Assembly: GCA_002946415.1 (NCBI GenBank)
Contig: NJPS01000058.1
Location: 248,001-312,000, forward strand
Direction: 5' to 3'
Origin: Rutstroemia sp. NJR-2017a BVV2
Lineage: Eukaryota; Ascomycota; Leotiomycetes; Helotiales; Rutstroemiaceae
DNA length: 64,000 bases
Shown: positions 12,762-54,000 of the stretch, piece by piece
Layout: each line of letters begins with the position of its first letter
Numbering within the stretch: position 1 is the stretch's first letter
The notes under the pieces: generated by a model
What the model was told of the DNA's origin: nothing
Database searches by the model: none
Seen by the model: only the letters and a program-made list of their open reading frames with translations
Program-made: the position numbers and the translations under genes

Positions 12762-13692
12762 TCAAGGAATATCCTCACCCCTCACCGCCCCCTCCGGCGC
12801 CACCCACTCAAACCCCTCCGGCATCTCCACCACTCTCTCCTTCAACCAGTCCTGCAGTGCATCCCAGTCCACACACTTATGCCAAGTGCCACCATTCGGA
12901 ACCGGCTTATCATTCCCTTTAACCCAATACAGCGGGATGATCGTCGGATCGAATTTGCACATCAGATACTGTCTTGTGTAATCGACGCAATGCTCGAAGT
13001 GCTGTTCGTAGACTTGTGGTAGATTGGTTTTGAGCGCTGATGCGGAGGGAATGGTGTCGACATAGTGGTCTTGCCATAGGAAATGGAGACAGTGGAGGGC
13101 GTGGGTGCCGGAGGCGATTGCCGGGTAGCCGCCTCCGATTGAAGGGGGGTATTGGGCGGCGGTGAGGTTGTGCCTGATACGCAGGATTTCGGAACCAGGG
13201 ACGCGGATTTCGCCGTCTGTGTGAAGGGGGGTTAGGAAATGGAGGAAATTATGAGGGTATCAGCATTCGTACATTTCATTATGTCGTACCATGCTGCATC
13301 GACTTCGGGTGTAGGGGGACCCTTCCATGGAGATTTATACCAGACAGAGTATTTGAACCGCACATCTTTAAAAGAGTCCTCGTCGATCGCGTCTAAAATG
13401 GGTGCTTCTAGCTGTTAGCCTGGTTATGTTTGTAAACATTAGACACAGGGAGTAGCTTGCAATATGAGTTGAACTTCTCAAGGCAGTTTTTCGGATGCCT
13501 TCCAGTAGAATAAACGAGTAGACCAACCCACGCGAGAAATGATATTATATGGATGATCCAGTGAGTCGAAAAGATATTAATTGATGAACGCTTCGGCACG
13601 ATCTTCTCATCGTCGGTGATGAACCTCGATGACTCGGACGGAGATTCAGTTTCCAGAGACGACCGTTCAAGAGAGACAGTTGAGAATGCCAT
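12762..13692 (-). CDS. UstYa-like (DUF3328) oxidase, RiPP-modifying candidate
   Basis: Member of the UstYa/DUF3328 family, membrane-anchored oxidases that cyclise or halogenate fungal RiPPs such as ustiloxin, phomopsin and asperipin. From the ATG at 13692 the protein has a short cytosolic N-terminus and one membrane helix (IIHIISFLAWVGLLVY). It then shows the family core: GPPTPEVDAAWYDIM, GGYPAIASGTHALHCLHFL and YEQHFEHCVDYTRQYLMC, carrying both HxxHC motifs (HALHC and HFEHC) that define the family. The C-terminal TWHKCVDWDALQDWLKER is also typical. A good 56-bp intron lies at 13217-13272. The first junction is weak: the only in-frame solution I find is a 35-bp GT..AG intron at 13412-13446, which gives 279 aa. 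It diverges from the KR-repeat precursor gene with about 810 bp between start codons, so shared regulation is plausible. Confidence 0.9.
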
Positions 13693-14502
13693 GGTGAATT
13701 TGAATGCACATAAACGTCTCAAGGATAAGTGAAAACGTATCCTGAGGTATGAAGCTATCAGTGAAGGAGACACATTCAACAGATCTCGAAGCGTCCTCGA
13801 AAAGAACGAAGAGGATGAAATTTGAGTCGGAGTGGGCACTTGCTACTCCCTGAAAACCTTTCCTACAGCGTCGCAACGATACACCACAATGGTGGGGTAG
13901 AGAAGGCAGAAATCATATGTTATCGTGGCTACCAATCGTGAAGTTTGGGTAGTTTCGATAAGGTTTGTCGCGTTACACTGGTGCTGCAATGGTTGGTCCG
14001 GGGGATTAATTTCATTATCAGCCCTAGGACCGGATGACCCACTCGGTCTTTGAGTATCACAACATTCAAGCAGAAATTTGCGATGTCACTGTGATTGCAA
14101 ATGTCGTAAGACGGCAGTTCCCCCTCTCGAACGGGATGTAACATAAGACGGCTAACCCAAATTATGGGTTGCAATGTGTCTAATCTTTAATTTGGGCTTC
14201 GACTGCATGTTTTGATTCGCTTCATGCATGTGATTATCAGTGTTCATTGTTTGAGTATCATTCACTGGTACGTGGGACATTAGAATTTGTGTTTGTGGAA
14301 GGTTGCCTAGAGAAATTGTAATAGCGGCTATTTCAACGATGAGAAGTGAACAAGGCTCTGTCGCAGGAGGTGGCAGGTATATAAGGAAAGGCTTGAACTT
14401 CTCGAACACCCCTCAGTTACACCCACAGTTCTCCTCAAACGCCCTCATTCCACAAGATCGTATAAATTTTTAAATTTCAGTCGCGACGATTAAAATATCA
14501 AT
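13693..14502. promoter_or_regulatory. Divergent intergenic promoter of the RiPP candidate pair
   Basis: 810 bp between the start codons of the UstYa-like oxidase (minus) and the precursor (plus). A TATA-type element TATATAAG sits at 14378-14385, about 120 bases before the precursor ATG. No binding site of a known cluster regulator could be assigned. Confidence 0.5.
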
Positions 14503-14965
14503 ATGAATCTCCGGGCACTTCTTCTTGCAGGTTTAGTTACTCTAGCGATGGCAGCACCACTTAGTACGTCAGGCCGTATATCATACTGCAGCACACTCCG
14601 GAGTTAGCTGACTTCGTGTAGATTTTGAAACGGATGATGAAATCGGCGTCGAAGTTTATGCCTCCTCCGCCAAGCGCAACAACTTCGAGGTCGATAGTGA
14701 AATCGGTGCGAACCGCTACGCAACTGCTAAGCGCAACAACTTTGAAGTGGACAGTGAAATCGGTGCGAACCGCTATGCAACTGCCAAGCGGGAGAACTTC
14801 CAGGTCGATGGCGAAATCGGTGTCGATCGTTATGCCACCGCCAAGCGCAACAACTTCGAAGTTGACAGCGAAATCGGTGCAAACCGCTATGCAACTGCCA
14901 AGCGGGAGAACTTCCAGGTCGATGGCGAAATCGGCGTCGATCGTTATGTGGCACAGAAACAGTAG
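14503..14965 (+). CDS. Secreted Lys-Arg-repeat precursor, candidate ustiloxin-like RiPP precursor
   Basis: Two exons, 14503-14563 and 14622-14965, joined across a 58-bp intron (GTACGT donor, CTGAC branch point, TAG acceptor), encode 134 aa. Residues 1-18 are a clear signal peptide (MNLRALLLAGLVTLAMA, cut probably after an Ala). The rest is six units of 17 residues, each followed by Lys-Arg except the last (Lys-Gln then stop). The main unit is NNFEVDSEIGANRYATA; the variant is ENFQVDGEIGVDRYATA. KR codons start at 14672, 14729, 14786, 14843 and 14900. Signal peptide, Kex2-type KR spacing, near-identical repeats and a conserved Tyr close to the cut site match precursors of the UstA/PhomA/AprA class. 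The UstYa-like gene next door strengthens this. The Tyr-containing C-terminal end of each unit (YATA) is my candidate core, by analogy with YAIG in ustiloxin; the true core is unknown. A plain Kex2-processed pheromone-like or cell-wall repeat peptide is the alternative. Confidence 0.9.
14622..14965 (+). repeat. 57-bp tandem repeat within the RiPP precursor
   Basis: Six 57-base units. The first is diverged. Units 3+4 and 5+6 are nearly identical as a 114-base pair, showing that an A-B dimer was duplicated. Confidence 0.9.
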
Positions 14966-17947: not shown

Positions 17948-20809
17948 ATGTCATTTTTGGACAAAGCTACTTCGGCCTTCAACCACTTCGTGAACGATGT
18001 GCAGGAGGAACTCTCCCACATTGAAGAAAAAGTGGAGGGAGAGCGTCACTCCCATGGCCATCAGCAGGAAGAAGGTGGTCAAGCCTTGCACATTCAAGGA
18101 AATGAGAATCGTTTCCAGAGCTTTGCTCCTCCTAGAGCTGGCAATAAGGTGAAATGGCACGTCGACGGATGCGAATACATGTGGGCTGTGTCAGTTGCTC
18201 TAGAAGAGGCACGGGAGAGTATCTGGTAGCCATGTTCTTTCACCGTTTATTGGTGATCCGATTTAACGTATGCTAGGATTCTCGATTGGTGGCTATCTCC
18301 GGAACTTTATCTCAGAAGACCACCATCCGCGAACGAAGATTACAGAGTCGATCGTATGCTTCTCGCCGCTGCCGAAAGAGGCGTTCAGGTCAATATCATT
18401 GTCTACAAGGAAGTCACGAAAGTCTTAACACGTATGTAATCCTCGTGATATCCATAGTCATGTGACATTGGCCGCTACTGACTCGTTTGCAGTTTGCTCG
18501 AAGCATACAAAGGAAGCTATAGAGAAGCATCCTAATATTTCAGTCTTTAGACATCCGGATCATTTACCCAGTGGGGTTCATGTAGAATCAGAGCTGTTTG
18601 CGGATCTCAAGAATTTCTCATTCAAGACTATAGACCTTGCAAAACTTCCTGAAGATGGCATCAAGGCTCTTTATGGTGTTAATAATGATATTATTCTCTA
18701 CTGGGCCCATCACGAGAAGTTGTGCTTGGTCGATGGACACCTAGCGTTTATGGGTACGTTAATCCTCGTTCATTTTCTAGCTCATGAACTAATAATCGCA
18801 CAGGTGGTCTTGATCTTTGCTTCGGCAGATGGGATGTCAACCAACATCCTATTTCAGATGCTCATCCTAGTGACTTGGATAATATCGTCTTCCCCGGTCA
18901 AGATTTCAATAATGCAAGAATTTACGATTTCCAAGATGTTACCCAATGGGAGAACAACAAGCTTGATCGTACCCAGTATTCTAGAATGGGTTGGTCGGTG
19001 AGTACTCGCATTACCATGCTTGTCGAATTATGATTATAACATGCATCAGGATCTATCAATGTCTATCACTGGGCCAGTTGTTGAAGATCTGAAAGCTCAC
19101 TTCGTTCAACGATGGAATTTCATCTACAGGGAGAAATATGACACTCCAGAGTCTAGGTATAAGTCTTTGTCTTTGACGTATGATGATATCCCCGATGGAT
19201 ATTACGATGAGGAAGGTAAGGCTACGGGAAAAAGCATGACGAGAGAATTGACGGACACATTCCACCGCGCAGGGTCATACTTGCATGGAGATCGCTCAAG
19301 AGGAGAAGAACGTGGAGGGGAAGGCAATGGAGTGAAGATCCAACTTGTTCGAAGTTGTACCGAATGGAGCAATGGATGTCCTACTGAGGTAAACTCTCCC
19401 ACTAGGATCCTCTTATCTTAACTAACGGTTTGTAGCATTCCATCGCCAACGCTTACATTGAAGTCATTCGCAATAGTCAGCACTTCATCTACATTGAGAA
19501 TCAGTTCTTCATCACAGCATGTAAGGATGAACAATACCCAGTTCAGAACAAGATCGGCGCCGCCATTGCAGAAAGAATTATTCGTGCCTACCAAAATGGT
19601 GAAGCATTCAAGGCTATCGTATGCATGCCTTCAGTTCCTGCCTTCGCCGGCGACCTCCACGATGACGACGCTCTTGGCACTCGGGCGATCATGGAGTACC
19701 AATACAACTCCATCTGCCGCGGAGGACACAGTATCATGGAGACGGTCGCCAATGCAGGAGTACCTGATCCCACCGAATACATCCGCTTCTACAACCTCCG
19801 CAACTACGACCGCATCAACGACAACGCCACCATGGCCCGCGCCGAAGAAGACAGCGGCGTAAGCTACGAAGCCGCCCGCAAAGAACACGACGACATCGTC
19901 GGCGCCGGGTACGGCGGACCCGGCGAAGAAACCGGCGCCCGCTGGGGCCGCGAGAACTACGACTACGAACAATACCAACGCGCGGCCCCGCGCGATTCCG
20001 ACGGCGAAAAAAACGACACCGTCTCCGCCTGCATCCTCGACAACCAAGCCCCCCTCTCCTCCATCCCGTGGACCGGCGCCCCCGAAGCTGAAATCGACGC
20101 CTTCGTCAGCGAGGAGCTGTACATCCACACCAAGCTCCTCATCGCCGACGACCGGGTCGTAGTCTGCGGCTCCGCAAATCTGAACGATCGCTCACAGCTC
20201 GGAACTCATGACTCGGAGATCGCTGTCGTTATCGAAGATACCGATATGGTGGATTCGTATATGAACGGGCGGGAATTCCCCGTCGCTAATTACGCGACTA
20301 CGCTCCGTCGACAACTGTTCCGTAAACATCTCGGCATGCTCCCTCCACAGGATTACCGCCGTCCCGACGCGAATTTCGCGCCCGTGAATCAGCAGCCTAA
20401 TGAGTATGACTGGGGCTCGGACTACGATAACGCGGTGCAAGATCCTTTCTCCCCCGAATTCTCAGATCTCTGGAACGGGCGCGCGCGCACGAATACGGAG
20501 GTTTATGAGAGAGTGTTCCACTGCGTGCCGACTGACCGAGTAAGGAATTGGGACGAGTATCATGAGTATTATGAGCAGTTCTTCCTGAGCCCGAGTCCGA
20601 AGGAGACAAAGGAGGAGGAGAAGGAGCCGGCGCGGTATCGGTATGGACATGTGGTTAGGGAGGAGTTTGGGGGTGTGGAGGAGGTGAAGGAGGAGTTGGG
20701 ACGGGTGAGGGGGAGCTTGGTGGAGATGAGTTTGAGGTTTATGGATGGGGTGGATTTTGCGAAGGAGGGGTTGAGTTTTAATGCGTTGACGGACGAGATT
20801 TATACTTAG
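17948..20809 (+). CDS. Phospholipase D (two HKD motifs)
   Basis: Hydrolyses phosphatidylcholine to phosphatidic acid and choline; eukaryotic-type PLD superfamily. The ATG at 17948 follows a TATA box by 60-67 bases. After a short charged N-terminus the catalytic half begins (WHVDGCEYMWAVSVALEEAR, then ILDWWLSPELYLRRP after an intron). The first HKD motif reads HHEKLCLVDG near 18708 (H-x-K-x4-D), continuing after an intron as GGLDLCFGRWD. The second is IHTKLLIADDRVVVCGSANL near 20125. NSQHFIYIENQFF near 19473 is the conserved linker. There are about six exons, with introns near 18230, 18434, 18752, 18997 and 19388. No PX or PH domain is evident, so it is shorter than Spo14-type PLD1 and resembles the shorter fungal PLDs. 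The last exon is notably GC-rich at 19800-20200. Probable roles are membrane signalling and vesicle traffic. Confidence 0.92.
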
Positions 20810-24331: not shown

Positions 24332-24780
24332 AGTTTAGCTAAGAATATAGATGATTTTGCTTTGGGTACCGACGTGTTATCGGAATAGCTTTTACATGTT
24401 TTGTTCCGGACGAGGAACTCGAAACCCCGCATATGGGTGTGATTCGGCTAATTGCGTGAGGTAGGTACCTATTGTCGTGGCTGCCAACCATGAGATTCAT
24501 TCTCCCACCTCTATGTGGGACAAACATTCATACCATTATTGAAGATGAGGGGAAGTCATACAAACAGGAGTGAAAGTGGGATGGGTCTTATTGGCGAATC
24601 ACCGGTCTCCACTCTGGCTATGCTGCTGTGCCGCCGTGCTGATATTATGTCGGGGCTGATGTTCTTAGAAGAAAGAAAATCTCTATTTCACACATAACTA
24701 TCCAACTATGCTGTCAATTCTCTGTCTCATACCTGAACTCCTTACTTCCATTGCTTCATGATAGCTAACTTCTCCTCAAA
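24332..24780. other. Intergenic, divergent spacer GNA1 / terpene cyclase
   Basis: 449 bp holding both promoters. No recognisable element. Confidence 0.4.
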
Positions 24781-25615
24781 ATGAAGTTCCCCAAACATCT
24801 ACCCCTCAACGAAATAGACCTCGTCAATCAACCACCGCTTCACTTCCTTCAAGTGCAGGATGCTTTGATATTGTTGACCGTCATACCATGGAGTATTGCG
24901 TACGTGCTGTATATCAAACAAGCCTACCGCGACAAATCCTACGGCATGCCCCTCTTTGCACTGTAAGGCGCGTCCCGTCAGGCGACCACGCGACGAAGCT
25001 GATACGAGATACTAGCTGTTCTAACATTGCATGGGAATTGGTATACGCATTTCGATTCCCTTGGAACTTGACACAATTCATAATCTTCGTTCCTTGGGTT
25101 GTGATAGATGTATACCTCGTCTACACCACCATCAAATTCGGACCTAATCAATGGAAACATGCTCCACTAGTCGCTCAGAACCTGACTGCGATCACGTTGT
25201 TTGGGATCGTGTTCATGATAGGGGCGCATTGGACTTTTGCGGAGACTTACGGATCGAATGTGCAAGCGATTGTTTGGTCGGCGTTCGTGTGCCAGATGGT
25301 GTTGGGATGGGCGTCAATTGCGCAGCTTGTGACGAGGAATAATACGTCGGGCCATTCTATGAGTATCTGGTAAGTGATGGCAAGTGCAATGTCAGAGTTG
25401 CGTAGGTTTATTGATTATGGGCTAGGTTTTGCCGGTTCGCTGGTTCTACGGCCGCAGTTGTAGTGTACTGTTGGCGTTATGCTTATTATCCCAAGGACTA
25501 CTGGATGGCGGGCACTCCAGTTGGGATATTCTTGTTTGTTATGGGCGAAGCGGCAGATGTCTGCTATCCGATGGTATTTAGTTATTGTAGCAAGAGTAAG
25601 CACAAGACAGGATAG
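24781..25615 (+). CDS. Pyr4/PaxB-family membrane terpene cyclase
   Basis: Small polytopic membrane protein of the Pyr4 class (PaxB, AtmB, AusL, Trt1, AndB), which cyclises epoxidised prenyl chains of meroterpenoids and indole diterpenes by protonating the epoxide. Three exons (24781-24962, 25016 to about 25370, then the remainder to a stop at 25615). The family line YGMPLFALCSNIAWELVYAF spans the first intron and includes the conserved Glu of the WE motif. Further helices are FIIFVPWVVIDVYLVYTTI, LFGIVFMIGAHWTFAETYG and VGIFLFVMGEAADVCYPMVF, the last with the conserved late Asp. About seven helices are expected. No prenyltransferase or FAD epoxidase of the usual cluster is adjacent. It is either an orphan cyclase or one of the widespread family members of unproven substrate. 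Confidence 0.85.
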
Positions 25616-26072
25616 GAGGGAGAGAAGTGGTTGGTAGAGAGAAGTGGTTGATAGAGAGAAGTAGATATCAACATAGAACAAACCCACTGTGGCTTGAGGA
25701 TGCCAAGACTTGTGCTTGATAATTTTGTTGGTGGATGACAGAGACCAACGGTTCGCTTACAAAATGCATTATTGGATGTGCACGGACCACGCTCGCACCC
25801 CCAGAAGTTCAATCCGTGGAGGGTCCCCGCGGACATAAACATCGGACTGCCCCAGCTCGACATTAGATTGATTTGCATGTCTCTGCACCTCTCATCCATC
25901 CAACCATCTTGCGTCCACCGTCAACAGTCAACCGTCCCGTCCACCTCAAGGCTTAAATTAAAGCCTCTTACACATCCAAGTACAGTACTTGTACCTTTTC
26001 TTGCCTGTCGCCATATTCATTAATTATCATCACCGCCAACATCATTATTACCCTCAACATCAATGCTTCACA
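25616..26072. other. Intergenic
   Basis: 457 bp between the terpene cyclase stop and the FAD oxidoreductase start. A direct repeat of the type GAGAGAAGTGGTTG occurs at about 25619-25660. Otherwise nothing. Confidence 0.4.
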
Positions 26073-27326
26073 ATGTCTTCCAATAATCACGAGATCCTCA
26101 TCCTGGGTGGTAACTTCGGTGGTGTGAATGCTGCACACAATCTCCTCCGAAGCACAATTCCCACACTCAAGCGTCTCAGCCCATCCAAGTCATACCACGT
26201 CACACTCGTCACCCCGAACACAGATTTTTTCTTCAAGATAGGAAGTCCCAGAGCCCTCGTTAATGCCACCGCACTACCCTACTCCAAATTATTCCGCCCA
26301 TTGTCCGAAGCCTTCTCGCAGTATGATGCTTCCCAATTCACCTTGGTTCAAGGTGTAGCTTCGTCTTTAGATGCATCCACGAGAACTGTTACCGTAACCA
26401 CTGGGACAGAAGACAAGCAAATTCAATACGATTCTCTCATTATCTCCACCGGCACCACCTCCAAATCCCCCCTATGGACTCTTCACAACGACCAATCCCT
26501 CACAACCAAAGCTCTCGAGTCCATGCACACGGAGCTTCCCAAAGCCAAGACAGTTGTCGTAGCAGGCGGAGGAGCAGTTGGCGTTGAAACCGCAGGCGAA
26601 ATTGCTGCAGCTCATCCTTCATGCAAGGTTACGCTTCTCTCCGGCTCGCACCGAGTTCTCGATCGTGTCAAGGAAGCAACCAGTATCCGCGCACAAGACT
26701 ACCTCGAGAAAGTCGTGCACGTCGAAGTCGTTCACAACGTCCGGGTCGATAGTGTCAGCGGCGAGCATCCTGCCACACTCAAGTTGAGCGACGGCAGTAC
26801 GCGAGAAGTCGACCTCTATATCGATGCAACTGGTGGGAAGGCAAACTCCGAATTCCTCCCAAAGTCTTGGCTCGATGAGACGGGACGAGTGATCACGCGC
26901 GATGTATATTTCCGTGTCAAAGGAAACGGCACAGATGATGTGAAGCAGGTGTATGTGTTGGGAGATATCGTGGCGGGAAGTTCGAACGCAGCATTGGAGC
27001 TCGATCCTATGGTCACGACACTCTGCTCTTCTCTCGCAGTAGACGTTGCTTCTAGTCTTGAAGGGGCGAAGAAGGAAGAGCCAAGCCCTGGATTCATCGG
27101 ATCGTTGTTCGCGAAGTTCTTCGGCGGAGCGGGGGGATACCCCAAACAACTCGAGTTTAAACCCTTGAAGGATACGCTAGTTGTTCCCATTGGACCTTCG
27201 GGCGGAGTGGGGCAGATCATGGGATGGCGGATGCCGAGCTTGATGGTGTATATGGGGAAGGCGAAATCGTATTTGATTGAGCTTATTGAACCTACTATTA
27301 CGGGGTCGAAGTGGAAGAAGGTGTAA
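26073..27326 (+). CDS. FAD/NAD(P)-dependent oxidoreductase, AMID/NDH-2-like
   Basis: Flavoprotein of the pyridine nucleotide-disulphide oxidoreductase superfamily, in the branch with apoptosis-inducing factor homologues (AMID) and type II NADH dehydrogenases. Intronless, 417 aa from the ATG in CACAATGTC. The N-terminal FAD-binding motif is ILILGGNFGGVNAAHNLL. The NAD-binding motif VVVAGGGAVGVETAGEIAA is near residue 160, the line DLYIDATGGKANSEFLP follows, and YVLGDIVAGSSN is the second FAD contact. The C-terminus is amphipathic and may touch membranes. Substrate unknown; transfer of electrons from NAD(P)H to a quinone is the usual activity. It follows the terpene cyclase by 457 bases in the same direction. 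It is not the FAD epoxidase that normally partners Pyr4-type cyclases. Confidence 0.85.
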   Translation: MSSNNHEILILGGNFGGVNAAHNLLRSTIPTLKRLSPSKSYHVTLVTPNTDFFFKIGSPRALVNATALPYSKLFRPLSEAFSQYDASQFTLVQGVASSLDASTRTVTVTTGTEDKQIQYDSLIISTGTTSKSPLWTLHNDQSLTTKALESMHTELPKAKTVVVAGGGAVGVETAGEIAAAHPSCKVTLLSGSHRVLDRVKEATSIRAQDYLEKVVHVEVVHNVRVDSVSGEHPATLKLSDGSTREVDLYIDATGGKANSEFLPKSWLDETGRVITRDVYFRVKGNGTDDVKQVYVLGDIVAGSSNAALELDPMVTTLCSSLAVDVASSLEGAKKEEPSPGFIGSLFAKFFGGAGGYPKQLEFKPLKDTLVVPIGPSGGVGQIMGWRMPSLMVYMGKAKSYLIELIEPTITGSKWKKV

Positions 27327-27860
27327 GGCGGAGTTTGGCGTGTTGTTGTGTCAGGTATATAATCTTCGTCATGGACTTCAAGAACTAGTGTAACCTTCCT
27401 TACCTGGCGGTTACCCCTCATATTTATACTCCTTTTGGGCACATCCGCATCAATTGAAGAGCATACAGCATGGTGGGTCAATTATATTTTTAGAGCCTGC
27501 TACATGATAAGATAGCTCATTATGTACTTTAATATTCTTGACGTATTCTGCTGTATAAGGTGCCATTCGAGTGACCTGGTTTGCACACAACGGAACAAAA
27601 CGATAAGCTTTTTATACTAACCCAACAACCTCGGCGTCTCAAATTCGCCTTTCGAAATATTTTCTGGGCGGATCGAGTGGGTGGAAGGAGGGGTACAGTA
27701 TGCCTGCACCATATAGGAATATCACCGAAGTCGAAATACATGGGTTTCTTCAGCATCTCGATATATATTTAAACCTCTCCTTCGGCCCAAGATTGTAGCC
27801 TGTCCAATATGTGCTTTCGATTTCCAGCTTTGTCTGGAGCAATAACTATTTATCCCAAAT
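27327..27860. other. Intergenic
   Basis: 534 bp between co-directional genes. TATATATTT near 27763 lies about 100 bases before the next ATG and may be a core promoter element. No gene. Confidence 0.4.
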
Positions 27861-30001
27861 ATGTCTGAACCTCTGAAAAGAAGCAAGCTGGATTCCAAAG
27901 TTTCTACCACCCCGGCCACCCCAGCTACCAGTTTCTCGGAACCGGGAGACCTAGATGGCGTACTACTGCCTTCGAACGCTCCTATTACAACAACAAGAAA
28001 GAGCCCCGAGTTGACCACGAGCGAGAGCTTAAGCTCTTATCCTGCCAGCGTCGGCTGGTCCATATTCTTCTCCATCGGCATCATATTAACAGGTGTTAAC
28101 GCCCAGATCATCGGCGGTCTATTCGCCACGCCCGCCTTCCAGCGCGATTTCGGGTACTTCTACGAAGACTCGTACATCATCAGCGCACCATGGCAGTCCG
28201 GAATCATCGTGGGTCTCCCTCTAGGCATGTTCTTCGGTGCGTCCAGCATTGGATATTTCATGGACAAGTACGGTCGAAAAAAGGCATGTATATTTGCCTT
28301 TTACTCAAGCCCTGTGATCATGAAACTAAGAAAGCATCATCCAGGCCTTTTTGATCTCCGCTGTCGTCTCGGCTACTTTTATATTCTTCCAATTTTTCGC
28401 CCGCGCCTTAGCGGTTTTGCTCATTGGCGAACTCATCGCCGGACTCGTGGGCGGCATGTTCTTGGCGTTGGTGCCGACTTATACTTCGGAGATATGCCCC
28501 GCTGCGCTTCGTGGCTATATGACTTCTTGCATCAACCTCGCTCTGGTGGTAGGTGATCTTATCGGGAACGGAATCATTGCAGGAACGCACGGCATCGACA
28601 GCCACTGGGCGTACCGCGCACCGCTTGCGATGCAGTGGGTGTTTCCGCTGGTGATGATCCCGGGGGCGCTTTTTGCACCGGAGTCTCCGTGGTGGTTGGT
28701 TAGGAATAGCAAGTTCGATGAAGCGGAGAGAACTCTGGTTCGTCTTTCGTCGCCGGGGGTGGATAATAAATCTGTGTTGGCGGGCATGATTGAGACGGAT
28801 AGGTTGGAGTTTGAGATGCAGGTTGGATCTACTTATGCGAGTATTTTCAGCAGATTGAATATCCGTCGCACGGAAATCTCCCTGGCGGTTGGGTTCGGCG
28901 CGGTTCTTTCTGGGCTGTATCTTGGGGCTTGGACGAGTTATTTCTTTGAGTGTAAGTCAGGACTTCTGTCTCAAACGCCGCCGCATCCGTGGAAGATACT
29001 TACTTACTTACCCATTCTCCCAACTCCAGTAGCAGGGCTCCCTCAATCCCAAGTATTCAATATGAGCGTGGTATTCACGGCTGTGGGTGTAATAGGGAAT
29101 CTCCTCTCCTGGCCCTTGTCGGCTCATGTGGGGCGTCGCCGCATGTATAATGTCGGGATCGGGTTTATTGCTGTCTTGATGTTTATCGTCGGGATTCTGG
29201 ATTGTGTGCCGAATTACGAAAATAGGCCGGATGTTATTTGGGGACAGTCTGCTTTGTTGGTATGTTTGAGTTTGTTGTTTTTATTGCTATTTATATGTTA
29301 TCTCTCCTGTTATCATATGGTCTGCTTTGTATTTTTCTTCCTGTTTTCTTCTTCTTACTTCTCCTTTTATCCTTTCCTCAACTACTACCTTCTACTTCCT
29401 AATCTACTCTCTACCCTCCCCCTTTCCTTACTTCTCCCCTCTTCACCCAGCCCCTAATCCCCCATTCCCAAACCCATCTCATCCTTCTTCCCTAACACCC
29501 CCCACCCCAACAGATCCTCTTCTTCGGCATCTACAACCTCACAGTCGGTCCCGTGAGCATAACCATCTACAGCGAAATCTCCGCCACCAAAACCCGCACC
29601 AAAACCATTGCCGTCGCCACCGCGTTGCAGTCGCTTCTTGGGCTCGTCATGACGGTTGTGATTCCGTTTATGATCAATCCTGATCAGGGGGGTTGGGGGG
29701 GTAAGGTTGGGTTTTTTTTTGGTGAGTGTGAGGTTTTTATGTTATGCTGGGAAGAAAAATCATCTCATTCCGTTCGCTGGAAAGGGTTCTAGGCAGGTTT
29801 AAGTAAAGAGGTGGAATGGTGGTGTTTAAAATGGGAAGGGAAGGATTGGCTAACAGATGATAAATAGGGGGGCTGTCAACTTTGTGTTGGGTGTGGGGCT
29901 GGTATAAGGTTCCGGAGACGAAGGGGAGGTCGTATGAGGAGTTGGATGTTATGTTTGCGAGGGGGGTTAAGACGAGGGAGTTTAAGGGGTATAGGATATA
30001 G
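27861..30001 (+). CDS. MFS sugar transporter (maltose/hexose porter type)
   Basis: Twelve-helix sugar porter of the MFS, probably in the plasma membrane. A Ser/Thr/Pro-rich cytosolic N-terminus of about 60 residues precedes helix 1 (IFFSIGIILTGVNAQIIGGL). Signatures seen in order are IGYFMDKYGRKKA (loop 2-3, before an intron near 28286), GELIAGLVGGMFLALVPTYT with SEICPAALRG, APESPWWLVRN, the second-half repeat LSAHVGRRRMYNVG, and PETKGRSYEELDVMF near the C-terminus. Six exons are needed. The fourth intron (29260-29513) is about 254 bases and strongly pyrimidine-rich, and the stop is at 29999-30001. The APESPWWLV and PETKGRSYEELD lines fit the alpha-glucoside/hexose branch, but the substrate is undetermined. 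Confidence 0.88.
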
Positions 30002-30563
30002 ATAGGAGAGTGCAAGAGCAAGGAAGGGAAGGTAAATTGGAGGGTGTAAGAGCTAGAATCAAGTGACTGAAACAAGAGAGAAAGGTTCGTTTAGACAAGA
30101 GAAGGTACAACAGGAAGCTGTAAGAGCATTTCAGAGCGTGAAATATACCGGATTGAAAGTTACTAGGAAATATGAAAGATGGTCGAGATTGCGGAGGCAT
30201 ACATTAGTCAAAGCGATCTCGCAAAGATTATCACCGTACCGTGTCTCAAGCAATTATACTGCCCGCTATTTCCATGCAATCAGAATTTGAGTTGGCGGAC
30301 GGTTTGCACTCACAGTGCTGATTTAGGGCTGAGTGATACCCCTCCCATTGGTGCCCTCACTCCCATCTTCAGCCTCAGTCAGAAGATAAGAATAAGAGAC
30401 CCCCTAATTGGTATAGACGAGCCCAGTGGCTCTTTTTGTCTCAGCCATGTATGAAGGGAGGGAAGAGAAAGAAATCGCTCAGTGATGATAATATATTGCC
30501 CCGCTCATCGTGAAAAGCATTTCATTTTCTCCTCACACACATCGACGCTACTCACAAGCAATC
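30002..30563. other. Intergenic
   Basis: 562 bp spacer between the sugar porter and the reductase. No recognisable element. Confidence 0.4.
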
Positions 30564-31978
30564 ATGAAAGGCGTAATAATCACCTCTCCCGGCTCAACCT
30601 GGTCTCTCGTCAACGACCTCGAGCGGCCTAAACCAGATAAACACCAAGTCCTGGTGAGATCGCTCGTCACGGGAATCAATCCCATGTACGTGTTGTACAT
30701 ACTCACCCTCATTCTTCTCCATCAAACTGACATGCATACTTCAAGGGACGAACTCATGCACACGACGGGTCTTCTCGTTAAAGACTGGCCTGTAGTCCTG
30801 GGCTGCGATGCCTCGGGTGAAATAGTTGAAATCGGGGACGAGGTCACAAAATTTAAGGTCGGGGATGGGGTTTTTGGTTGCACGAGGTTGGGGTACAGAG
30901 GGTACGGGACGTTTCAGGAATTTTTAGGGTTCATTTTTTCTATGTTTTTGGCTTTTGTATGGATGTTGAGCGCGAGGCTGATTAAGTGAAAAGCATTTGA
31001 TGGATGAGGAGTTGGCGTTTAAGAGGCCGGGGAATATCTCGGTGGGGGAGGCGGCGACGGTGGGGGTGGGGTTGTTGGTAAGTTAGCAAGTTGTTATTGC
31101 TTGTGGTGTTGGTGGTTGGATGATTAATAGTTCCTAGACTGCGGCGGTATGCTTTGCTGAGGGGAATCACACCTCATTTCCATCGTCGCCGGCGAATGAG
31201 GGAGCTGATGCAGAATGGTTTATTGTTCTGGGTGGGACGTCTTCAGTTGGTCAATACGGGATCAAGGTAGGTTAGCATTTGCTGGATACCACCATCCTAA
31301 TAACCTAACGAATCTGACCAAACCCAGCTTGCAAAACATTGCGGATACAAAGTCCTAGCTTCATGTTCTTCTGCAAGTCACACGGTGTGTGAAGCTCCTT
31401 AAGATCCTCTTACATGTCCTAGCCGCGCAGACTCACCGAACTAAACTGTGCAGATCGTGCTAGCAGCCGGCGCAGATGAAACATTCGACTACAAACTGTC
31501 TGAAGACCGACAACTGAACGCCATCCAATCCACCACTCAAGGCAAATTCGCAGCTGTTTTCGATGCATCGGCCGCCAATACCAATATCGGCCTCAAGGCA
31601 CTAGGAGAAGCATCGTTGGCCTCATCCACGAAGACATTCTCGACAACAAATGACTGGTAAGCTAACTCCAAAAATTGCACTTCTCCTGAACTCACTCGAG
31701 ATAGGGACACAATCCCAACACCTCCAGAAGGATCTATAGAAATCTACCGCGTTCATCTCGGAGAACTAGGAAGATATGGAGAGGTCAAGGGCGATGAGAT
31801 TAATCGTGCAGTGAAGAAGTATATTCCTGTTCTTGAAGACTTACTTGCGAATGGGTATTTGGTGCCGGTTGAAGGGGAGGTGGCTGCTGTGGGGTTTGAG
31901 CAGATTCGGAATGGGATTGAGGCTTTGGGGAAAGGGAGATCGGGAAAGAAGGTTTTGGTGCAGTTGCAGGCGTATTAG
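30564..31978 (+). CDS. Zinc-independent enoyl/quinone reductase of the MDR superfamily (LovC-like)
   Basis: Medium-chain dehydrogenase/reductase lacking obvious zinc ligands, similar to fungal trans-acting enoyl reductases (LovC type) and toxin-reducing quinone oxidoreductases. The ATG at 30564 gives MKGVIITSPGSTWSLVND. Exon 2 carries WPVVLGCDASGEIVEIGDEV, where the Cys and Asp align with the usual fold, and KVGDGVFG. After a poorly defined intron in 30930-31000, ELAFKRPGNISVGEAATVGV follows. The NADPH loop is WFIVLGGTSSVGQYGIKLAK near 31220. The C-terminal part ends with GKKVLVQLQAY. At least six exons. No PKS is nearby, so a partner for trans-enoyl reduction is absent from this window. Detoxifying enone reductase is the alternative. 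Confidence 0.8.
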
Positions 31979-32674
31979 CAGATTCGTCTCTAAGGGTCTG
32001 TTAGTTGTCGCATGCACTTTTTCGGCAGTGAGTAAAGACTTAAGGATACTTAAAGACTACGTCAAGAAATCAGTATTAGGCGTATAGCATCTAGCCAGCA
32101 CGCACACTATGCTGACCTTAGAAACTGGTACAGTGGTGAATGAAAAGTTTCATGCTTATAAGGCCAAGAATCTAATGGTTGTCACCCCTTGCATAATTCC
32201 CATTTCAACCAGACGAGATTGCCAAGCTTCTGTATATGCAATGCAGACTGAAAAAGCGGCAGATCAGAATACTAGATCGAGGGTCTAGATTCCAAGGGAT
32301 ATTGATTACATACAACCAATATTATTCCTTTTTGATTAAAAACGGCAAATGATTCCTTACTGCAAATTGACTTGCATCCTCTCTTCACGATGTACTCAGC
32401 TGAGTAAGACGGCAGGCAGGCGAATGACCCCGCATTGTGTTTATGCGTACCTTTTCCCAGGAAATCTGCCCACCAATCGGACGTGATTTCCGTGATCACT
32501 ACATAAGCAAGGACTGTGATAGGTAAACTTTGGATGGTTCGCGATGTAACCCAAGAACGCGGCAGTAATGAGGAGGGGATATAGAACTCTCAACAATATA
32601 TATGTCCAAGTTTTCCCCTAGATGGGATGTGAATATTTTCTGCTTACAGTGCTCGCAAACTGTTGCTCAAGGTT
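31979..32674. other. Intergenic
   Basis: About 700 bp. A TATATATG stretch near 32597 lies roughly 75 bases before the next start codon. No gene. Confidence 0.4.
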
Positions 32675-34971
<2,297 letters not shown>

Positions 34972-48011: not shown

Positions 48012-49253
48012 CTAGACCTTTTGTCTCTTTGTTCCTTCCGCCGCAGACTCTCGCGAAGATCTGGTGCGTCTCTTGTGCAAAGCATTGGCTACACTATCGA
48101 CTGGAATATCCTTTGTTTTCTGATCCTTTTCCACCACGCTGTTCTTTTCCGAGGGAGCTTCAACTTCAGTAGCAGGGGTAGTCATAGTTTTATTTGCCTC
48201 TAAAACGTTGGATTTCTTGGGCTTTGAAACCTTGGGCGATTTGTTCCTCTGTTGGAGGACCCCAGGAATATGGATACGAAAGGGCTCCTTTCTAATTGGG
48301 GAATCCGGCAGTCTCGTGCGAGGTTTCGGAATGTCGTCTGCAGGGACAAGGGGTTTCAAAGGCTGCGATTGCGGAGGCTGCAGCTGCAGGGTGGATGGTT
48401 TTTCAGAACATGCGTTCTGCAGCCTATGCTGCCCAACCCACTTTGATAGTCTTTGTAATTTAACTACTTTTTGTAGGAACTTGTTAACCGTCTCGACTTC
48501 TTCGTCAGTGCAATCCGGGAAGTTTGGCGGCAATGTTTGGGGGCCTACTTCAGCTCCGGAAGCTACTTCAACTCCAATGTTGACAAATCGAAGCGTTTTT
48601 CCTCTGGTCGCGCTAATATAGCTTATCATGTTATTTGTGAGATGCCCTGTATCGTCTTCTTCGTTGAGCTTTAGGCGTTCTTTGGCACAGTCGCAGAGAA
48701 CTGTTCCCGTCTCAATATCATATTTCCCATTTTCAATTCCCACCACATATTCATGTGGATCTTCTCCGTAGGCTCTCCAGACTTTTCGCGAGCTCCAGTT
48801 ATCATATCCTGAAGGGTCTGCGGACTGACTACCGCGAGCTGCCCTGTTTCTTGTCTCAAACCAGCTTGTCAACTTCTGCTGGCCTACTCCCGTCGCGTGC
48901 ATCATCAAGATCTTCGTGCCAACCGACGCGAATGGTCTTTGAATCCATACCGCCATCATGAGAATAAGTTGCGAGTCCAGTAGTCTTGCCGGCAAGGGTT
49001 GGCCAAGATCAATTTTTACTCGTTGCGCCATGTGCCTGCACTCATGTTAGCCTTTACCTATAAATTCTACGCGCGCTGACTGTGCTTACCTCTTTACGAT
49101 ACCAACCGTAATAGCAGCTGCAGGGTTAGTAGTGTTGCATGCTTCATTGCACCGGTCCATAAGTTCTTTGAAGGATAACGAGGAGATATCCCCTGGAGGA
49201 CACTTGTCGTACTCGGCATTCAGCCACGCACGGTGAGCTGCTGTCTTAACCAT
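48012..49253 (-). CDS. Unknown protein, tandem paralogue A (WLNxxYD / KIDLxQP family)
   Basis: Two exons (49253-49090 and 49035-48012; 54-bp intron with GTAAGC donor) encode 395 aa. Exon 1 gives MVKTAAHRAWLNAEYDKCPP and a Cys-containing helix-like part (LMDRCNEAC). Exon 2 opens with HMAQRVKIDLGQPLPARL, then a conserved block TKILMMHATGVGQQKLTSWF, then WRAYGEDPHEYVVGIENGKY. The C-terminal half is Pro/Lys/Ser-rich and ends with basic clusters (KRRTRSSR, TKRQKV) that look like nuclear localisation signals. The gene at 51048-54051 has the same order of blocks and an intron at the same codon phase just before HM, so the two are tandem duplicates. The KLTSWFETRNR line loosely recalls helix 3 of a homeodomain, but the key Asn is absent. 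Function unknown; a DNA-associated nuclear protein is my guess. Confidence 0.75.
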
Positions 49254-51047: not shown

Positions 51048-54000
51048 TTAGAGCATATCATTCTGAAACATATGATCCGCATTGAAAGCAGGAGATGCTG
51101 GCATTGCTTCCATGGTCTGTTTTTGATCTGGATAGACCCATTCTGGATCCGTGTTTGAATTGAAAGCAGGAGATGCCCACATCGCTTCTGTGAATTGGTT
51201 TTGGTCTGGATTGACAAATACTGGATCCATTGTTGAATTGAAAGCAGGAGATGCCTGCACTGTTTCCGTGGACTGGTTTTGATCTGGATAGAAAGGTTGT
51301 GGACCCACATCTGAATAGAGGAGCTCGGAGTAGGAGATGGAGCCATAATTGTCCGGGGGGACTATTGAAGACTGGGAAGTATGTTGCCCACCATCTTCCG
51401 AGACCTCAGGAGCTGAATTGTAGTGAGCAGAGCCAAGATCGATATCATTTGACGTCGGCACTCCAACCTCGCCATTTTCAACAGTTGTTTCATTTGCAGG
51501 TTCATTGGCCCCGTACAGCAACCTACATTCATTCAATGGCAAAAATTCATCCATGTCGTTGTGAGCTGGCTCGCTCTGTTTCCTATTGGATGTCGAAGGT
51601 TGAGAAGAAGTAAAAGAGGGACCTTCCTGGGCGACGGGGTTCTGAACGCCCTGAGTACCGGGTACGTCGATGCTACTAGATACATTGCCATCCTGCTCCG
51701 AATTTGACAGATGTTCCTCTGGATCAGCTTTGAGAATAGGAGTCTCATCCAAAAACAGATTTGGATCGAAATTCTGTTCCAGATTTGCGTTGGAGGACTC
51801 GTCATACTCCCTAAAAATAGCCTCAAGAGCTTTTTGGTCATACGAGAAATCGTTATCTTGCGCTGTGGAATTGTAGGTTTGGTAAGTTTGAGATTGTAAG
51901 CCAGCAGCGGCCACGAGATCGTGATTGCAGTTTCCAGGCTGACCAATGTTTACATCAGTTCCTCGTGCCATGTCGATTGGGACATACTGTCCGGAGTGTG
52001 GCATCTGAGCTGGAATAACCTTTACAGGTTGCGTGCCCAAAGGAAAAGATGCTACTGGCATGCCTGTGAAATCTTCGGCACCAGAAGACGATTGAGTAGA
52101 AGTTGGTGGATCTGATGATAGACTCGGCATAGGAAGAGGTTCGTTGTAATGCCTGGGCGCAGAAGTTCTTCTCTCAGCCTCGCTAATTCGAGGCTCCACC
52201 ACAATAGTATCGGCATGACGTTGTCTTTTATTCCCTCGGTCAACTGTATTCTCGATAGGATCATGTCTTCGTTTGTTGGAAGAGACACGCTCTCCGCTGC
52301 GAGCATTAATGCCACTTCTTTCTTTGGTTTGACCATATCTATTGAGGTTGTTCTGGGACCTCAGTTGTTGTATGCGGAAGCCGTAGACGGGGGGAGTGTT
52401 TAGCTTGAGGTAGCTGGGTATTACATATAGAGGAATTTTACCCTTCATAGCCCGGGGGTTGTGAACCCGAGGAGATTCAGCAACTTTGTCGCGAGAATCT
52501 GATACAGAAGCTCCAGGATTCTTCGATTGGGTTCTTGGTGACTTTTCGAATGGAGGTACTGGCAGTGAATTATTCGATACTCCCAATGGAGCTGCGTACA
52601 ACGATGAGGAGGCATTGAATTCTGCGACGTCCCCAGAGCCCATCGCATGATTGTCGCGAGGTCTTCTCTGTACGTTCTGGTTTCCTGAATTTGCGCCTCG
52701 CTTGCTAAGAGGATGGTTCATGCGAGTTTCATGGCCTGTCATTTGATTTCCTGAAGGCTGGTCTGCCGGATACGACATGATTGATGGCTGTTGCGTATTA
52801 TTCAATCTTCTTTCGGGGTTGAGCGAATCAGAAGAGGGTCTCCGGGTTGTATTTTCGTTCATGCCGTACGGTAGTGAACTATAGTCAGTGCCATATTCGG
52901 CATCAGGCGATTGCTGACGTCGATGAATGCTAGCACCCTGCATGCTGCTATCTTTCATGCTGCCATGTTGCATGCTGGCACCTTGGATCCCAAAGTATCT
53001 CATTCCACCTGGAGGCATTCCACCAGAGCGCATGTCGTCCCACCATGAACCATCATCAACGCTTGTGTACGTCGGCAACTCATTCGATTCTTCATCAGAC
53101 CCCTGCGACAAGCCGTAGCGTCTAGCAGTGGCCATGTTTGATTGGGATCTTTGATCTGAGCGGTCGATATATTGGCTGGCGTTGGGATGCATGGCCTCGA
53201 GAGCAGCTCTGCGCCTGTTACCGCTACTAAGGTGTCTTTGGTTTGCTCCAGACTCCGCATTTCGATGCTGAAGGTTGGGGCGTCTGTGCACCGATGGAGC
53301 TTGCCTGTTGATGGGATCTTGTGAGGCCGGAGCTGGATGACAATGAGGCTGTGACCTTGGATACTTCATATACTCGGCAGAAGTGACTTTGTACAGGAAT
53401 CCGGGGCGTTGGACCCCACTGTCAAGCACTCGAGCTCGTTTCCAATTTGTATCCAAAACTGCACCATTCACCGGGTGAATAAGGCCTTGCTCTAACTTGG
53501 CAACGTAGCCTTCTGGATCGGCTGCGTATTCCCGCCACATTAACTTCGCGTGGTGCGTATGATTTTTTCTCACTGGATCCTGCTGTTTCTGTTCCTCCGT
53601 TAACTTTCGTGTCTGCTCCTCGAGCCAGCCGCTCAACCGCTTCTTGCCCATGCCACCTCTGTGCGCCAGAATTATTTTCGATCCAATGCATGGGTTTCTG
53701 CACACATTATAGACAGCCCGCATCAGATCATATTCTTTTTGGGTGAACTTCTTCTGCCTCGGTTGATTTAGATCAATCTTCTGCCGGTTTCTCATGTGTC
53801 TGCAACTCTTGTTAGCTATGATGTACTTGTGGGGGAAAAGGGGGTTACGGCTTCAATACATACCCGGCTACAACACTCGCTTCTATCATGTCTCCTTTGA
53901 TGCCCAATGCTTTGTTGGTTGGGATACTAGTCCCGCAGGCTTGATTGCATCGCTCGGCAAGAGATCCAGCGGACTCGGCAGGCATGACTCCTCGGGGAAA

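Follow-up and report, generated by a model that had tools for sequence, protein, structure and literature searches.

The systems closest to the locus described here are the dikaritins, or ust-RiPS, of which only five had been reported according to a 2022 review (PMC10512285). The survey of Umemura (2020, PMC7329392) counted 7,878 repeat precursors in 1,345 of 1,461 strains and sorted them into 838 precursor types and 2,560 stand-alone precursors, the latter without a homologue; most of the surveyed precursors were unique at the genus level or above. A DUF3328/UstYa gene lies within 15 genes of 22% of the surveyed precursors, and of 30% in Ascomycota, with the count peaking at the adjoining position, and tyrosine occurs in 65.6% of the repeats of DUF3328-associated precursors versus 38.2% of the others. 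A repeat precursor of novel sequence with a UstYa gene as its immediate neighbour is therefore the expected picture of the class. Rutstroemia itself appears in the same survey for several precursor types, and nine such clusters have been described in one Venturia genome (PMC9632046). In lichen fungi, two conserved groups of UstY-bearing clusters have candidate precursors without conserved repeated motifs (PMC12048977), which is a reason not to expect a repeat precursor next to each oxidase of this kind. In the narrow sense, the dikaritin gene set as defined by Ding et al. (quoted in PMC12048977) comprises a tyrosinase, a methyltransferase, several DUF3328 proteins, and a transporter or peptidase. 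Ustiloxin and phomopsin share the core pattern YXIX (PMC7329392). Asperipin-2a, with its bicyclic FYYTGY core, is encoded by a four-gene cluster that includes a reductase and a transporter next to AprA and AprY (PMC6514808). Epichloecyclins, the products of GigA, are cyclic nonapeptides cross-linked from the N-terminal isoleucine to an internal tyrosine (PMC9233826); their ring is given as heptapeptidic in PMC6514808.

The window analysed here is a stretch of 64,000 nucleotides (contig C54, 248001-312000) from Rutstroemia sp. NJR-2017a BVV2, in which a sequence-only reading had proposed an ustiloxin-like locus of two genes. The precursor gene (14503-14965, forward strand) starts with an ATG at 14503 and consists of two exons (14503-14563 and 14622-14965) around a predicted intron of 58 nt (14564-14621, GT-AG, GTACGT...GTAG); it encodes 134 amino acids with six units of about 19 residues. 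The N-terminus, MNLRALLLAGLVTLAMAAP, is signal-like as judged by eye (hydropathy 2.5 over LLLAGLVTLAM), and read unit by unit the protein is MNLRALLLAGLVTLAMAAPL-NFETDDEIGVEVYASSAKR-NNFEVDSEIGANRYATAKR-NNFEVDSEIGANRYATAKR-ENFQVDGEIGVDRYATAKR-NNFEVDSEIGANRYATAKR-ENFQVDGEIGVDRYVAQKQ (dashes added). Five Lys-Arg (Kex2-type) sites, with codon pairs starting at 14672, 14729, 14786, 14843, and 14900 (span 14672-14905), are spaced exactly 57 bp apart, just as had been read from the letters and as is confirmed by the codon positions. When the residues of exon 2 were shuffled, at least four evenly spaced Lys-Arg pairs appeared in none of 20,000 shuffles, the longest run being three (in two shuffles) against the five observed. 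With Tandem Repeats Finder, a 57-bp array is detected at 14669-14934 (score 334); a double period of 114 bp, at 14669-14948, scores higher (425) because two unit types alternate in part. Seven columns (N2, F3, D6, E8, I9, G10, and Y14) do not vary among the six units, and the motif EIGxxxY recurs in every unit (14639-14947; starts at 14639, 14699, 14756, 14813, 14870, and 14927). Every unit contains exactly one tyrosine, the precursor is devoid of tryptophan, and units following a Lys-Arg site start with NN or EN. With its highly similar repeats split by Kex2 sites, the protein is a predicted Kex2-processed repeat protein (KEP), present as a single copy in the genome. Pfam matches of the precursor to DUF905 (2.2e-5, 24.8 bits, above the cut-off of 22.3) and to Phage_Gp84 (3.2e-5, below its cut-off), neither of which had any stretch passing alone, were treated as repeat artefacts.

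Three of the units encode the same peptide and differ at synonymous sites (pN 0 in all three pairs, with pS 0.58, 0.66, and 0.32), which indicates that the peptide, not the DNA, has been kept. Over all 15 unit pairs, mean pS is 0.73 and mean pN 0.22, with unit 1 included despite a one-residue shift in its tail; these values are simple proportions uncorrected for multiple hits, and some pS exceed 1. Such a pattern is what selection on the peptide would leave, rather than recent duplication. Searches of the protein database brought up no homologue of the precursor, either among 1,449 candidates or among 7,997 sharing most words (E up to 1e-3 and 10; candidate length ranges of about 74-234 and 168-534 aa). 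Copies of the precursor carrying 50% random changes still score well, a control on the scoring step that follows the word filter, and the negative result may reflect the word filter, the length ranges, missing annotation, or real absence. As a claim of novelty, the expectation of a new product carries little weight, since the 2,560 stand-alone precursors of the survey (PMC7329392) are likewise without a homologue.

Head to head with the precursor gene and separated from it by a divergent intergenic region of 810 bp (13693-14502) lies the gene of a UstYa-family oxidase (12762-13692, reverse strand). It encodes 272 amino acids in three exons (13692-13461, 13404-13273, and 13216-12762, the last including the stop codon) separated by introns at 13460-13405 (56 nt, GC-AG) and 13272-13217 (GT-AG). 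The gene is intact, and its product matches PF11807 (UstYa/DUF3328) with 160.3 bits at a cut-off of 25. Both the divergent pairing and the assignment of the oxidase to the UstYa family, with its two HxxHC motifs, had been recognized in the sequence-only reading and hold; the length of 279 amino acids given there has been corrected. Since scripted choices for the first intron (GT-AG and GC-AG, 30-250 nt, frame open) left many possibilities, the choice of gene model rests on relatives: the 56-nt GC-AG intron gives '...NCLEKFNSYSPILDAID...', in keeping with the relatives, which read '...NCLEKFNSYSPILDAIG...' (P0001) and '...SCLEKFNAYSPILEAID...' (P0002). The earlier model with a 35-nt first intron (279 aa) was rejected, the homologue from Clarireedia jacksonii being 272 aa long and aligning without gaps to the 56-nt model. 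This C. jacksonii protein (P0001) is the closest relative found, with 90% identity (244 of 272 positions). Clarireedia belongs, like Rutstroemia, to the Rutstroemiaceae (Helotiales) and includes turfgrass dollar-spot pathogens. A literature search for Clarireedia together with UstYa returned nothing.

In the protein database, 40 relatives of the oxidase were found, in genera that include Clarireedia, Sclerotinia, Pleopsidium, Xanthoria, Lobaria, Stachybotrys, Daldinia, Ophiocordyceps, and Karstenula, whereas searches of the viral and prokaryote collections yielded none; within its own genome, the best other match reaches 40% identity over 89 residues. In an alignment of 32 of the 40 homologues, from which P0032-P0039 (149-205 aa) were left out, the motifs HALHC (residues 160-164, 13089-13103, reverse strand) and HFEHC (residues 194-198, 12987-13001, reverse strand) have their counterparts in all 32, and H160, H163, C164, H194, H197, and C198 are invariant. 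In a model of P0001 built with this alignment (mean pLDDT 72, pTM 0.51), the first motif falls on helix 157-172 and the second on helix 188-208. The model also predicts a long hydrophobic N-terminal helix at residues 44-63 (13504-13563, reverse strand), which may be a membrane anchor. A fold search of the PDB with this model found nothing at E <= 0.001; among PDB sequences, the single sequence had no match at E <= 1 and a profile reached E 0.75 at best.

A UstYa gene thus lies beside a KEP gene, 810 bp away and in divergent orientation, which is the arrangement of a dikaritin locus in the broad sense; the intervening region is possibly a shared promoter, and the two genes may be co-regulated. 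The narrow-sense gene set was not found at the locus. Of the 161 stop-to-stop ORFs of at least 90 aa, 30 were scanned against Pfam, and among these no tyrosinase or methyltransferase family was matched (methyltransferases were sought there only); on the contig (C54), there are none of the genome's 23 tyrosinase matches and none of its four S41-peptidase matches. The earlier remark that no tyrosinase, methyltransferase, or peptidase gene adjoins the pair agrees with this result. No family was matched by the scanned ORFs left of the pair or by those from the pair up to 19 kb, and the absence of any cluster tailoring enzyme, transporter, or regulator beside the pair among the 30 scanned ORFs is counted against the explanation favoured below. 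Further to the right, Pfam identifies a phospholipase D-like protein (19.4-20.8 kb), an alpha-galactosidase (22.7-23.5 kb), a Pyr4-type terpene cyclase (24.8-25.4 kb), an NAD/FAD oxidoreductase (26.0-27.3 kb), an MFS sugar-type transporter (28.3-29.5 kb, about 13 kb from the pair), an alcohol dehydrogenase-like ORF (30.5 kb), and a GMC oxidoreductase (32.9-34.9 kb); a peptidase-S9/alpha-beta-hydrolase ORF is found 29 kb from the pair. The row of ORFs from the Pyr4-type cyclase to the GMC oxidoreductase (24765-34920) is possibly a small metabolite cluster. Two long open frames on the reverse strand (51051-53852 and 48015-49046) are without a Pfam match and share, as judged by eye, a start-region motif CRHM...KIDL.QP; 78-bp repeats overlap the former.

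This genome (43.4 Mb, 79 contigs) has several precursor/oxidase pairs, of which the locus is one, and contains 79 exon-level UstYa matches, one of them on contig C54. Around these matches, 28 stretches were examined, the window's own locus (L009) among them; the stretches did not extend to C46 matches past 255 kb, to the matches at C55:385 kb, C58:590 kb, and C68:344 kb, or to the C74 matches, which are repeats of matches on C25 and C50. UstYa matches score alike on C25 and C74, where they also share coordinates, and on C50 and C74, which points to duplication or redundancy among these contigs. Further Kex2-type repeat precursors with dibasic sites, and with signal-like starts by eye, were found in six of the 28 stretches. 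L017 (7434-8594; G000:C28, about 704.7-705.9 kb), a large precursor, contains AVDADNAIVYPADAKR with 19 dibasic sites and has a UstYa match 2.1 kb off, head to head, and L035 (2381-2638) contains GTDADAANKVYKR units, with a tail-to-tail UstYa match nearer; by our assignment, both resemble the published DADAATXYV motif (PMC6339444). L031 (6773-7768), with EPHHTEAQIAAKKAKAAKGQRDVEER beside a UstYa match, is a di-histidine precursor that we liken to published di-histidine types (PMC7329392). In L022 (1657-1920), QDRGTDKR units without tyrosine lie in tandem with a UstYa match, and the precursor of L019 (7998-8375), with STSAAYVHGSYGYDKR, has three units ending in YGYDKR. The region L019-L020 (G000:C34, 1.021-1.032 Mb) has eight UstYa matches within 11 kb and looks like a multi-oxidase RiPP cluster. 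Finally, L014 (7346-8050; G000:C15, about 880 kb) carries Trp-rich, pheromone-like WADKR units and lies some 2.1 kb from a UstYa match; it is reminiscent of a Ccg-4 homologue described from Rutstroemia, which has a DUF3328 gene two genes off (PMC7329392). The scanner matches L010 1115-1312, L026 3661-3822, L031 7281-7691, L019 7933-8538, and window 19768-20088 were discarded on visual inspection as chance, Arg-rich, or overlapping frames. Counting the window's locus, five of the seven precursors are head to head with their nearest UstYa match, as measured to match ends. In 15 comparisons of the units in the window with the other repeat precursors of the genome, shuffle p values were 0.041-0.064 at best, which was taken as no relation. 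A single match to the Kex2-type P-domain exists in the genome; it lies on contig C5.

Compared with the known systems, the locus shares with dikaritins the signal-like start, the tandem Lys-Arg units, and the adjoining UstYa-family gene with both HxxHC motifs, and differs from them in that no other cluster genes were found adjoining and in a core unlike the published cores compared. Its precursor design is that of ustiloxin B and phomopsin, and in four units a Tyr-Ala tetrapeptide directly precedes Lys-Arg (YATA versus YAIG). In contrast to these systems, there is no isoleucine at core position 3, no tyrosinase match on the contig, and only one UstYa match. The residues after the tyrosine, YATA in four units, YASSA in the first, and YVAQ in the last, are not invariant and do not follow the YXIX pattern, so that of the supposed ustiloxin-like locus the arrangement stands, namely a Kex2-type repeat precursor with an intact UstYa gene, and the likeness of the core falls away. 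Asperipin-2a likewise combines one UstYa-type oxidase with one repeat precursor; however, the units here have one tyrosine each instead of a multi-Tyr core, and neither a reductase nor a transporter was found beside the pair, and the label "asperipin-like" is not supported, asperipin-2a being made by four genes. The order of residues is one described for epichloecyclins, a likeness drawn from published accounts of these products: an isoleucine precedes the internal tyrosine of the presumed core, both are invariant and five residues apart in six of six units, and IGANRYATA and IGVDRYATA count nine residues from isoleucine to Lys-Arg in the YATA units. Unlike the heptapeptidic ring given for epichloecyclins in PMC6514808, the stretch from isoleucine to tyrosine spans six residues here.

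The locus is most likely a two-gene dikaritin (ust-RiPS) in the broad sense; its anatomy is solid, its assignment to the class likely, and the kind of pathway already known. The precursor would enter the ER and the secretory route, where the Kex2-type protease of the genome would cut after each Lys-Arg. With Lys-Arg lost, this would yield mainly 17-residue units, NNFEVDSEIGANRYATA in three copies and ENFQVDGEIGVDRYATA in one, the first and last units being different. The UstYa oxidase encoded by the divergent neighbour would modify the units at their single tyrosine, most likely by forming a ring to a nearby side chain, and general peptidases would trim the unit ends; the proposed core region of the four YATA units is IG(A/V)(N/D)RYATA before Lys-Arg. 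That the oxidase modifies the precursor units, by whatever chemistry, has a probability of roughly three in four in our estimate, because of the repeats with their Lys-Arg spacing, the constraint on the units, the UstYa domain, the Kex2 match of the genome, the head-to-head trend, and the association of tyrosine with DUF3328 genes in the survey. Counted against it are the precursor without a database homologue, the wide distribution of the oxidase, and the lichen UstY clusters without repeats. As for the ring, a bond between the tyrosine and the invariant isoleucine five residues before it, in epichloecyclin order, is tentatively preferred over the ustiloxin order, because both residues are invariant in six repeats of one gene and the nonapeptide order is as in epichloecyclins; we hold this guess at clearly less than even odds, the rest being shared by other oxidations at or near the tyrosine.

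Ether macrocycles at tyrosine, as implied in the sequence-only reading, are an over-statement, the chemistry being inferred and members of the UstYa family taking other parts elsewhere: hydroxylation and chlorination in cyclochlorotine pathways (PMC12048977) and a role in residue desaturation in phomopsin (PMC10512285). An oxidase acting on the units by hydroxylation, desaturation, or chlorination without any tyrosine ring, which is included in the estimate above, is nevertheless a minority prospect, since the tyrosine is invariant in the units and the single-UstYa pathway of asperipin-2a makes tyrosine ether links (PMC6514808). The oxidase might instead have nothing to do with its neighbour. 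Its relatives occur in many genera, so that the true substrate could lie elsewhere, the precursor was not found elsewhere in the database searches, and from the counts in PMC7329392, 78% of Kex2-repeat precursors (about 69% in Ascomycota) are without a DUF3328 gene within 15 genes; the repeat peptides could then act unmodified, as signal, surface, or effector peptides. The divergent adjacency at 810 bp, the one tyrosine per unit, and the like arrangements at several other UstYa loci of the genome argue against such unmodified peptides, which we consider unlikely. The signal-like start, repeats, and Lys-Arg sites would equally suit an alpha-pheromone-type mating factor. However, the units start with NN or EN instead of the STE13-type XA/XP dipeptides after Lys-Arg (PMC7329392), the precursor is without tryptophan, a Trp-rich pheromone-like precursor exists elsewhere in the genome (L014), and 98.6% of annotated fungal pheromones are without a nearby DUF3328 gene (PMC7329392), which together make a pheromone highly improbable.

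Returning to the modified units, a more far-reaching proposal is that a group of stand-alone UstYa cyclases, common to many ascomycete genera, is combined here with a single fast-changing repeat precursor into a minimal, self-contained module that would make Ile-Tyr cross-linked IGANRYATA and IGVDRYATA, with the ring order of epichloecyclins and a different spacing; in this full form, the proposal is speculative and rather doubtful. Precursor/oxidase pairs of this kind are well surveyed in print, and the locus contributes a further uncharacterised example, from a fungus related to Clarireedia. With two genes and one tyrosine per unit, it would be an easy test case for the action of a single UstYa protein on a peptide.
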